Source of the DNA: Nitrospirota bacterium
GTDB lineage: Bacteria; Nitrospirota; UBA9217
DNA length: 62,421 bases
Assembly (NCBI GenBank): GCA_035516965.1
Contig: DATIZR010000060.1
Span: 1-62,421, forward strand
Reading direction: 5' to 3'
In this document: piece by piece, positions 171 to 37,811 of the stretch
Layout of the letters: the number at the start of each line of letters is the position of its first letter
How positions within the stretch are numbered: the first letter of the stretch is position 1
Notes under the pieces: generated by a model
Told to the model about the DNA's origin: nothing
Databases searched by the model: none
Seen by the model: only the letters and a program-made list of their open reading frames with translations
Position numbers and translations under genes: made by a program

Positions 171-1256
171 TTGATGGACCCTATACCCCGCAGGCGAACA
201 AGGCAGATCTCCCTCGGTTCCGTCAAAATCGGCGGAGGCGCGCCGGTCGTCGTCCAGTCCATGTGCAACACGGACACGCGGGACGCGGCAAAGACGCTCG
301 AGCAGATGAGTCATCTCGAACAGGCGGGATGCGAGGTGGTGAGGCTTGCCGTTCCCGACCTTGACGCGGCAAAGGCGCTGGGCGGGATCCGTAAGGGTAC
401 GAAGCTTCCCCTCATTGCGGACATTCACTTCGATTACCGCCTGGCGCTCGAAGCCGTGAAGCAGGGCGTGGACGGGCTCCGGATCAACCCGGGCAATATC
501 GGCGGGAAGGACAAGGTGGCCGAGGTCGTGGCCGCATGCAGGGAGCGGAATATCCCGATCCGCATCGGTGTGAACGCGGGCTCGCTCGAGAAGAATCTGC
601 TCGAACGGTACGGCCACCCGACGCCCGAAGCGATCGTCGAGAGCGCCTTCGGCCATATCCGCATTCTTGAAGACCTGAACTTCACGAACCTCAAGGTCTC
701 GCTCAAGGCCTCCGACGTGATGACGACCGTCGCGGCCTACCGGCTGTTCTCTCAGCAGTCCGACTATCCGCTCCACATCGGCATCTCCGAAGCCGGCACG
801 CTCTTCTCCGGCACGGTCAAGTCCAGCGTGGGGCTCGGCATCCTGCTGAGCGAAGGCATCGGCGACACCATGCGGGTCTCGCTCACCGCCGATCCCGTCG
901 AGGAGGTCCGCGCAGCCTACGAGATATTGAAAGCCCTCAAGGTCCGGCAGCGCGGCGTGAACATCATCTCCTGCCCGACCTGCGGCAGGACCGAGATCGA
1001 CATCATCGGGCTTGCCCAGGAGGTGGAAAAACGGCTGGCCCACATCAAGGAGCCGATCACCGTAGCGGTCATGGGCTGCGTGGTGAACGGGCCGGGCGAG
1101 GCGCGCGAGGCCGATGCGGGCATTGCCGGCGGCAGGGGAGTGGGCCTCTTGTTCAAGTACGGAGAGATCGTCAAGAAGCTTTCCGAGGAGGACCTCGCCG
1201 ACGCGCTCGTGAAGGAAGTGGAAGAGATAGTAAGCAAAACAAAATTGAAATCATGA
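171..1256 (+). CDS. ispG: 4-hydroxy-3-methylbut-2-enyl diphosphate synthase IspG
   Basis: 361 residues, the size of the short bacterial IspG (GcpE). It reduces methylerythritol cyclodiphosphate to HMBPP in the non-mevalonate isoprenoid pathway. The N-terminal TIM barrel begins near VQSMCNTDTRD. The C-terminal 4Fe-4S domain shows ISCPTCGRTEID and MGCVVNGPGEA, which carry the three cluster cysteines and the conserved NGPGEA motif. A TTG at 171 and an ATG at 174 are both possible starts; the AGAGG at about 156-160 fits the TTG better. It sits 44 bases after rseP and is followed by a short repeat and proS, so it is probably cotranscribed with them. Confidence 0.96.
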   Translation: MMDPIPRRRTRQISLGSVKIGGGAPVVVQSMCNTDTRDAAKTLEQMSHLEQAGCEVVRLAVPDLDAAKALGGIRKGTKLPLIADIHFDYRLALEAVKQGVDGLRINPGNIGGKDKVAEVVAACRERNIPIRIGVNAGSLEKNLLERYGHPTPEAIVESAFGHIRILEDLNFTNLKVSLKASDVMTTVAAYRLFSQQSDYPLHIGISEAGTLFSGTVKSSVGLGILLSEGIGDTMRVSLTADPVEEVRAAYEILKALKVRQRGVNIISCPTCGRTEIDIIGLAQEVEKRLAHIKEPITVAVMGCVVNGPGEAREADAGIAGGRGVGLLFKYGEIVKKLSEEDLADALVKEVEEIVSKTKLKS

Positions 1257-1405: not shown

Positions 1406-3094
<1,689 letters not shown>

Positions 3095-3179: not shown

Positions 3180-3431
3180 ATGGACCGGGATATCGAACGG
3201 ATCAAAACCATCGTAGAAACGGCGGGCCAACGGTATCTGAGCAGGGGCGGGAGCGTGCGTCTGGCCGCGATCGAGGGCGGTATGGTCAAGATCGCGCCGG
3301 CGGGATTCTGCTGGCGCTGACATATCACCCGGGTGGCCCTGGTGCGGGGCCTCGAGGAGCAGTTGCGGTCTGAATTCCCCTGGGTGGAGCAGGTGCTCGT
3401 GGTGAAGCCGCAGCAGGAAACTCCACCGTAA
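3180..3431 (+). CDS. Nfu/NifU C-terminal-domain protein with in-frame UGA (putative selenoprotein, CxxU)
   Basis: From ATG 3180 the frame runs to TGA at 3318-3320 and then continues open, in the same frame, to TAA at 3429-3431, for 83 codons. The first part (MDRDIERIKTIV...LSRGGSVRLAAIEGGMVKI) and the part after the TGA (HITRVALVRGLEEQL, FPWVEQVLVV) together cover a complete NifU C-terminal (Nfu) domain. This domain carries an Fe-S cluster on a CxxC pair. The TGA falls exactly on the second cysteine of that pair: AGFCWR-TGA, so the motif is C-W-R-U (codon 47). A SECIS-like hairpin lies at 3335-3351. Seen: open frame, family match, position of TGA, hairpin. Inferred: UGA is read as selenocysteine. 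The alternative is a TGC-to-TGA nonsense mutation. It lies 85 bases after proS; AGGGG precedes the start. Confidence 0.72.
3335..3351 (+). promoter_or_regulatory. Putative bacterial SECIS hairpin
   Basis: GGCCC at 3335-3339 pairs with GGGCC at 3347-3351 and leaves a seven-base loop, TGGTGCG. Nineteen bases separate the TGA (3318-3320) from the loop. Bacterial SECIS elements are known to be small hairpins inside the coding region, with a G among the first two loop bases and a spacing of roughly 16-37 nt. Both conditions hold here. The stem is short, so this alone is moderate support. Confidence 0.55.
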
Positions 3432-3496: not shown

Positions 3497-3724
3497 ATGG
3501 AAGAGATCGTAAAACTCGCACTGACGCCTCAGCAGGTCGCTGAAATCAAAAAGCAGATCGGGTTCGATCTGGAGGAAATCTATCTCACCAAACGATCCCT
3601 CAACAAACTTCGCGTTTTCCGGCTCCGGCTCACGGAGGAACAGCAGCTTCTCCTGGAAGACAAGCTCGGACAGAAGGTCCGGGAACTGACCGTTACACGT
3701 TCCGTGGCCACAAGGATTCTCTAG
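3497..3724 (+). CDS. Small hypothetical protein (75 residues)
   Basis: Start ATG 3497 follows GGGAGGG and a sigma-70-type promoter, and the codon use matches its neighbours, so it is likely real. The product is soluble and charged, with predicted helical character. It contains TPQQVAEIKKQIGFDLEEIYL and RLTEEQQLLLEDKLGQKVREL, two amphipathic stretches that might dimerise. No cysteines or known catalytic motif are visible, and I do not recognise the family. It lies between the Nfu-like gene and a small lipoprotein gene, each apparently with its own signals. Confidence 0.65.
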   Translation: MEEIVKLALTPQQVAEIKKQIGFDLEEIYLTKRSLNKLRVFRLRLTEEQQLLLEDKLGQKVRELTVTRSVATRIL

Positions 3725-35888: not shown

Positions 35889-37811
35889 ATGACGATCGGA
35901 AGACTCGGGAACCTGTTCGGCACAAGGCGCGGCATGTCGCTCCTTTTCGTGCAGCTTCTGCTCGTGCTCGTCTTCAGCTATTTTTACCGCGGCTACCAGT
36001 CGAGCGACAGATGCGTCCAGTGCCACGCCGACAAGGGGAGGATGGCCTCGCTCGGATATCCGCAGTTCGTGATGACCCGCGAGCAGGTCCAGAAGGAGTC
36101 GCGCCATCCGAACACCGAATGCCGCGACTGCCACCTGGGGAACGGCCTCTCCGGCGATCCCGCCGGGGCGCACAGGGGCATGCTGAAGCTCATCGTCCTC
36201 GATAACGACCTGAACATCATGCCGCGCAAAGGGCATGTCAATCGCCTGCTTCCCGACGGCTCCGACCGGATGCGCGAAATGCTGCCCCGCCTCGCTGACG
36301 GCTCCCTCGATTACGATGTCGGCACCCTCCTCTGGCACGACCGGAACACGACCACGCTGGGGTACGATCCCGCCATCGCGCAGAAGACCTGCGGCAAGTC
36401 AGGCTGCCATGCCGACGAGGTGAAGCAGTTCAGTACGAGCGTGATGGGAGCGAACTTCCGGCAGCGGTCTATGAGGACGTGGAACGATATCCACGGCCCG
36501 AATAACTGAGGGCCGTCCTTTGCGGACACCCTGCCGGTCGGCAGGGCGGAAGGAAACAGGTTCTCCTTCGAAAACACGCAGAAGATCCTGAACGAGATCA
36601 ATCTTGCGCTCACGAACGACCAGGCCATCGCCAAGCAGAAGGCGTGCAACATCTGCCACGCAGGCTGCCTCGACTGCCACTATGCGCCCAGCCGCGAGCG
36701 GGGCAGCCATGCGTTCAGCAGGACGCCGCCGTCGCCGAACTGCACCGGCGGCGGGCGGAGCACCTTCGTCTGTCATGCGGGTACCATGGAGCGGCGAAGG
36801 GGCGACAGCTATCTCGGGAAGGATTTTTCCGAGCCGGCAGGCCTGCCGGAGGACGTTCACGTCTCGAAAAAGATCGAGTGTGTTGACTGCCATCAGACCG
36901 GGCCCGGCGGCATGGGCCATATCGAACGCAAGGCGACCTGCCAGGACTGCCACATCGAGGTCGAGGAAGCCATGGCAAAGAGCGTGCACAAGAACGTAGC
37001 CTGTGCGGCCTGCCACGTGAAGATCCTCGGCGGCTACGAGATGACCTCCTGGGGCCCGGGCATGATCGCCTCCAGGCCGAACCCGTTCAAGAAGTATTCA
37101 TTATATTACGGCCCGCAGGAACCGCCGATCCTGATCAGGGACCAGAAGGGCACGTGGATGCCGACCAAGATCTGGCCGAACAGCGTCGGCGGGTTCAAGG
37201 AGACCATCGCAGCAAGGCAGGGGCTCACGTTCCGGTGGCCCAAGGGCGAGACGCACGATGCCTTTGCGCAGCTCGGGACCTTCAACTTCCCCGGAGGGAA
37301 CAACAACTATCTCGCGTGGCTCCAGGTCGAGGAGGTTGCCCATCCGCTCGGCAAGTCGCGCACCTGCGGAAGCTGTCATGACTCCGGGACCCAGGTTGCC
37401 AGGGTCTCGTGGCACTATTTCGATTCACAGGGGGCCGAGCCCTTTGACGGGAGCCAGAAGGTCGTGGCCGACAGGAACGGGATCCACGTAAAGGACATCA
37501 AGGCGGCATCCCCGATGAAACTCATGGAAGGCGGGAAGATCGAGAACTTCGCCGCATGGATGAAACTGGGCGATATCTGGAAAACGAGCGGGGACTTCTC
37601 GATCCCGAAGTCCGATCCGGTCAAGTACCGGAACCTCGAACAAGGCATCCGCGATGCAATGCTTCGGCTTGATGCGATCGACAGGCAGCTCAGGGTTCGG
37701 GAGGCAAGGGGCGAGGATGTGAAGAAGCTCCGGAGACGGTGGAAAGAGGTCCGCGCCGCGGCAATGCATGAGCCGGCATCGGCTCGGAATTTATTGAACG
37801 AAATGAGGTAA
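35889..37811 (+). CDS. Membrane-anchored multihaem c-type cytochrome with in-frame UGA (putative selenoprotein)
   Basis: From ATG 35889 the frame reaches TGA at 36507-36509, then stays open in the same frame to 37811, 640 residues in all. An N-terminal helix (MSLLFVQLLLVLVFSYFY) anchors it. Haem sites: CVQCH, CRDCH and CGKSGCH before the TGA; CNICH, CLDCH, CVDCH, CQDCH, CAACH and CGSCH after it, so nine canonical or CX4CH sites plus an odd CX9CH. Neither half is a sensible protein alone, since the second has no signal and no start until 36786, past two haem sites. The codon (207) lies in HGPNN-TGA-GPSF. A SECIS-like hairpin follows. It may relate to Geobacter ExtKL-type cytochromes, which I recall only vaguely. 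The -10-like TATCCT lies seven bases before ATG. Confidence 0.82.
36529..36546 (+). promoter_or_regulatory. SECIS-like hairpin in the cytochrome gene
   Basis: CCCTGCC (36529-36535) pairs perfectly with GGCAGGG (36540-36546) around the loop GGTC. Twenty-six bases separate the TGA from the loop. The GGTC tetranucleotide matches the loop core of the E. coli fdhF SECIS. Stem, loop and spacing all fit the bacterial consensus. Confidence 0.8.

Follow-up and report, generated by a model that had tools for sequence, protein, structure and literature searches.

The question this locus raises is whether an Nfu-like gene with a UGA inside its reading frame is a damaged copy or encodes a selenoprotein in which selenocysteine (Sec) replaces the second cysteine of the cluster-binding motif. 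The window, i.e. the whole stretch of 62,421 nucleotides analysed here, is contig C60 of a 3.8-Mb Nitrospirota genome that is 98% complete and shares its genus with Nitrospirae bacterium GWC2_57_9. As judged from comparative sequence analysis, the gene, referred to here as Sec-Nfu, very probably belongs to a real and conserved selenoprotein family of Nitrospirota that is apparently undescribed; this judgement covers its identity and the decoding of Sec, not its role.

An Nfu domain encoded across an in-frame UGA

The gene and its key positions are the following:

3180 to 3431, plus strand: Sec-Nfu coding sequence, 83 residues, ATG at 3180 and TAA at 3429 to 3431, supported by its translation, the Pfam NifU match, 21 homologues and dN/dS below 1 before and after the TGA
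3309 to 3320, plus strand: CxxU motif C44-W45-R46-U47 at the position of the CxxC of Nfu domains, from profile alignment to 2z51, 1xhj and 2jnv; invariant in alignment A2
3318 to 3320, plus strand: in-frame UGA, read as selenocysteine, with TGA in 21 of 21 homologues and selA, selB, selC and selD in the genome

The TGA is codon 47 and the only internal stop of the reading frame, lying in the context G-F-C-W-R-U-H-I-T-R, and the translation reads MDRDIERIKTIVETAGQRYLSRGGSVRLAAIEGGMVKIAPAGFCWRUHITRVALVRGLEEQLRSEFPWVEQVLVVKPQQETPP. With U read as Cys the protein matches the Pfam family NifU (PF01106) with 33.5 bits at a cut-off of 27, as do all 16 Sec-Nfu members scanned, confirming the original prediction that a complete NifU C-terminal domain of 83 residues runs across the TGA. 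The same holds for the predicted placement of the TGA at the second Cys of the CxxC, giving C-W-R-U, since both the translation and the profile alignment place it at this column of the solved Nfu structures. An AlphaFold2 model (mean pLDDT 82) has human NFU1 (2m5o) as its best solved fold match with Z 11.9 and an rmsd of 1.9 over 78 residues, followed by Arabidopsis CnfU (2z51) with Z 9.6, and Foldseek likewise puts Nfu domains on top.

In all 21 Sec-Nfu sequences the CxxC cluster motif is replaced by CxxU, leaving a chemically equivalent position that is no longer a Cys. Ordinary Nfu proteins have small residues between the cysteines (GA, GS, SG or AG, as in CGAC, CGSC and CSGC), whereas Sec-Nfu carries the bulky or basic residues W/Y/H45, R46, H48, T50 and R51, which are fixed or nearly so. 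The W-R inside the motif and the His following U thus look, from sequence and alignment, like parts of an active site and unlike a plain cluster cradle. The same genome also encodes an ordinary CGAC Nfu on another contig (C40), suggesting Sec-Nfu is an additional, specialised copy.

Conservation of the UGA and the selenocysteine machinery

Among 148 related genomes a search found 11 close homologues, each of which has TGA at the column in question. When 396 Nitrospirota genomes were searched with a profile, 20 genes scored at least 95 bits, again all with TGA; the next match scores 49 bits, and the matches below the gap are ordinary Nfu. The in-frame TGAs tallied in such weaker matches (e.g. 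L025-L029 and L036) were rejected as Sec codons, being terminal stops of ordinary Nfu genes. Short protein patterns with Cys at the position of U miss TGA (a contig scan gave no match), for which reason about 85,000 species were scanned with a DNA pattern, G-[FY]-C-[WY]-R-[U or C]-H-x-T-R, in which the U/C codon could be TGA, TGC or TGT. It matched 14 contigs, every one from Nitrospirota and every one with TGA. Altogether we count 21 distinct sequences, from at least 21 genomes, in three Nitrospirota families (f1, f13 and f21).

A Cys form with TGC or TGT was found neither among the 21 homologues nor by the strict DNA pattern over about 85,000 species, although this pattern also missed the true members L087 and L089, so that divergent Cys forms may exist outside Nitrospirota. 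The original prediction had treated close relatives with an ordinary TGC as an argument against selenocysteine; the relatives all carry TGA. Viral contigs searched with the Sec-Nfu profile gave no match. In a tree with 24 ordinary Nfu, the 21 sequences form one clade with a support of 100/100. Length and reading frame are preserved across the homologues, and the start codons of family f21 are preceded by AAGGAG-type ribosome sites. Downstream of the UGA, dN/dS is 0.07-0.40 in non-saturated pairs, similar to the upstream part, and H48, T50, R51, L54, V55 and W68 following U47 are invariant in a 16-row alignment. A second, unlinked reading frame starting after the TGA was rejected, dN/dS and alignment being continuous across it.

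The host has the complete machinery for Sec insertion, in agreement with the original selenocysteine reading, which had been made to depend on the presence of selB and selC. The tRNA-Sec gene (selC, anticodon TCA) lies at 275-373 of contig C42, which also carries selB and selA, and selD is found on contig C86 (L057, 4133-5059). This selD contains one in-frame TGA, and the selenophosphate synthetase is thus probably a selenoprotein as well. As an observation on its organisation, the region at C42:1-14000 (L056) has selC, selB and selA on one strand, unrelated genes separating selC from selB. Across the 148 genomes, selB or selC is present in 11 of 11 Sec-Nfu carriers compared to 65 of 148 overall (hypergeometric 7e-5, a value that ignores relatedness), and selC was found in eight of nine further carriers.

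The original prediction had also pointed to a second in-frame UGA in a cytochrome of the window, which we located at 36507-36509. It lies between haem motifs, in the context GPNNUGPS, of a plus-strand reading frame (35889-37808) for a multihaem c-type cytochrome with eight CxxCH motifs, which gives weak NCBIfam matches only, to ExtN/ExtO; this cytochrome is possibly the second selenoprotein of the window.

The SECIS-like hairpin

Downstream of the UGA lies a hairpin:

3335 to 3351, plus strand: SECIS-like hairpin with arms GGCCCTG and CGGGGCC around the loop GTG, drawable in 21 homologues and supported by covariation and synonymous constraint

Its sequence is GGCCCTGGTGCGGGGCC, and it folds with 7 bp and a GTG loop or with 6 bp and a GGTGC loop. 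The loop starts 20-21 nt past the UGA, and the 7-bp form, with the loop at 21 nt, has -11.4 kcal/mol. The hairpin described previously, with 5 bp and the loop TGGTGCG, is the same element, but two inner pairs had been left open in that drawing. The published bSECIS model (a stem of at least 4 bp and a loop of 3-9 nt that lies 16-37 nt past the UGA and has a G at its first or second base; PMC13188914) agrees with the window hairpin in spacing, loop and stem. Rfam returned no prokaryotic SECIS match for the region, only chance lncRNA matches. Compared to shuffles of this GC-rich stretch the single sequence folds no better (z = +0.86), and we therefore used comparative tests, which are what makes the hairpin convincing.

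All 21 homologues allow a fitting hairpin to be drawn, with a G in the first two loop bases and the loop 20-21 nt past the UGA. The hairpins of family f1 and two of f13 are strong (-9.4 to -12.4 kcal/mol), those of f21 are moderate (-5.2 to -10 kcal/mol) and that of L044 is weak (-2.8 kcal/mol). Several f21 hairpins require one mismatch or a four-base loop, the loop register differs between clades, and the loop is GGUC, GGUG or CGUG depending on the clade. In one fixed register 87% of the cells are paired and 13 cells are changed on both sides, with a covariation score of 0.287. None of 500 shuffles reached this score, and sliding the partner by between one and three columns brings it down to at most 0.10; the shuffle tests are inflated by relatedness, a flaw from which the slide control is free. 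The compensatory changes include C-G, A-U or G-C at column pair 20-32 and G-C, A-U or U-A at pair 18-34.

Synonymous diversity points in the same direction, being 0.25 in codons +5 to +10 compared to 0.53 elsewhere and the lowest of 50 six-codon windows. The observed mean hairpin energy is -8.3 kcal/mol, compared to -3.2 kcal/mol (sd 0.66) under synonymous codon resampling, and was reached in none of 200 resamplings. In 24 ordinary Nfu genes used as a control the corresponding values are -2.2 and -1.2 kcal/mol, so that the excess is small (3 of 200) and due in part to one sequence at -13, whereas the excess for Sec-Nfu is 5 kcal/mol. The compensatory changes and the local synonymous constraint thus bear out the SECIS-like element that had been predicted to follow the UGA. 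The pairing extends into the protein: in the 21 sequences residues +6 and +10 after U covary as Ala/Gly, Asp/Val or Gly/Ala, because their codons supply C-G, A-U or G-C at one SECIS base pair. Judging from these codons, the Sec-Nfu protein sequence is shaped by RNA structure at these two residues.

These data bear on two other explanations of the UGA. Seen in one assembly alone, an in-frame stop might be put down to a nonsense mutation or to faulty sequencing, but the identical TGA in 21 independent sequences of three families, with purifying selection downstream, refutes a broken gene. Any UGA may in principle be read through to some extent with another residue, e.g. Trp by suppression; we regard this as highly improbable here, since the column is Cys and not Trp in related Nfu, and since the hairpin and the accompanying sel genes would have no reason. 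Moreover, several Sec-Nfu members terminate in TGA, showing UGA to be still a stop in these genomes, and for the same reason a lineage-wide recoding of UGA to Trp was rejected.

Gene neighbourhood, possible role and relation to known systems

Two genes lie upstream of Sec-Nfu on the same strand:

171 to 1256, plus strand: ispG, an isoprenoid-synthesis [4Fe-4S] enzyme, NCBIfam ispG 448-511 bits, two genes upstream
1406 to 3094, plus strand: proS, prolyl-tRNA synthetase, NCBIfam PRK09194 747 bits, 85 bp upstream of Sec-Nfu, synteny kept in family f1

The order ispG-proS-Sec-Nfu places ispG at the same position in six loci of family f1; Sec-Nfu is attached here to a widely conserved operon, so its nearness to ispG says little. 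On the 3' side, a plus-strand reading frame of 75 residues (3497-3724) follows directly, is kept in four loci of family f1 and has no match in Pfam or NCBIfam. The radical-SAM protein MnmL (TIGR01212) adjoins or lies near Sec-Nfu at every one of the 11 f13 and f21 loci for which upstream DNA was seen, as identified by ORF clustering or MnmL motifs; four of these loci have an opposite-strand, nitroreductase-like gene separating the two. Judged by eye, an opposite-strand nitroreductase-like gene stands directly upstream of Sec-Nfu in f21 (L069, L070, L052, L053, L054 and L055). In family f1, MnmL is encoded on another contig. Both IspG and MnmL are [4Fe-4S] enzymes.

Nfu domains bind [4Fe-4S] clusters and pass them on, and E. 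coli NfuA is important under oxidative stress (PMC8593673). Taken together with the Fe-S enzyme neighbours, this cluster handover favours delivery or repair of clusters as the role of Sec-Nfu. We propose a model in which the hairpin, 14 nt past the UGA and with its GGUC or GGUG loop, would recruit SelB and Sec-tRNA-Sec, whereupon the ribosome would insert selenocysteine at the UGA, resulting in the full 83-residue protein. Alongside the genome's ordinary Nfu, Sec-Nfu could then be specialised in carrying or repairing Fe-S clusters, using its CxxU to serve [4Fe-4S] enzymes that are sensitive to oxygen, among them IspG and MnmL, a role to which we give about even credence; the CxxU pair might provide Se/S cluster ligands, a redox pair in transfer, or both. 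A more tentative prediction is a homodimer with an intersubunit [4Fe-4S] cluster held by two Cys and two Sec ligands and tuned for delivery or repair at IspG and MnmL.

The main rival to a carrier role is a thiol-selenol redox enzyme on a reused Nfu fold, in which the CxxU would cycle between selenylsulfide and reduced states without an Fe-S cluster, and we take this to be a serious if somewhat doubtful possibility. The surroundings of the motif have shifted from small to bulky, basic and near-fixed residues, and in the predicted structure C44 and U47 sit at the start of a helix, resembling redox CxxC sites, which are typically found there. CxxU is, furthermore, common among redox selenoproteins (PMC13188914). 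However, the close relatives by sequence and fold are all Fe-S carriers, and Fe-S enzyme genes adjoin Sec-Nfu or lie near it. The constant company of MnmL in f13 and f21 could also suggest a Se or S carrier for tRNA wobble-uridine modification with MnmL as its partner, in line with MnmL being present in 11 of 11 carriers of the 148-genome set compared to 63 of 148 overall, a co-occurrence inflated by relatedness. We consider this improbable, since MnmL of f1 lies on a separate contig and the two neighbour settings indicate Fe-S enzymes in general and not tRNA chemistry.

Published inventories of selenoproteins do not hold this family: no NifU/Nfu entry is present among the 119 prokaryotic families of the 2026 catalogue (PMC13188914, Table 1), the 87 families of the 2022 list (PMC9312934, Table 1) or the nine new families of the 2025 deep-Sep paper (PMC12013277). 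NCBIfam has no dedicated Sec-Nfu model and gives sub-threshold matches to NfuA/NifU equivalogs only, and full-text literature on Nfu or NifU and selenocysteine yielded nothing relevant, subscription papers and GenBank annotations being outside this scope. In Sec-Nfu, selenium would sit where one of the most widespread of the Fe-S carrier domains binds its cluster. Should Sec bind the cluster, this would represent a biologically encoded Se-ligated carrier cluster, for which a comparison of U47 with U47C could reveal the contribution of selenium to transfer; if the protein is a redox enzyme instead, the Nfu fold would have been recruited to new chemistry. In either case the selenoproteome gains a family whose genes are split into two short pieces by gene finders, and Sec-Nfu offers what appears to be a clean case of SECIS RNA pairing driving amino-acid covariation.

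Within Fe-S assembly, the nearest precedent is the HesB-like selenoprotein (TIGR01911), a Sec-containing relative of Fe-S carriers of the A-type family, which has its own fold and a UxGP motif and is unrelated to Nfu. The redox selenoproteins SelW-like, AhpD-like, PrdC and GrdA share with Sec-Nfu a CxxU with Sec in second place, but have different folds and lack an Nfu domain. The SECIS of E. coli fdhF likewise is a hairpin with a GGUC loop after the UGA, with the loop 18 nt past the UGA compared to 20-21 nt in Sec-Nfu, and differs in stem sequence and by its bulge. Closest is the Nfu or NifU C-terminal domain itself (PF01106; NFU1, CnfU and the C-terminal domain of NfuA), with which Sec-Nfu has in common the fold, the domain length, the position of the CxxC/U and a Pfam match above the cut-off. 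It differs in having Sec in place of the second cluster cysteine, in the W/Y/H-R within the motif and the H-x-T-R that follows, and in forming a clade of its own.
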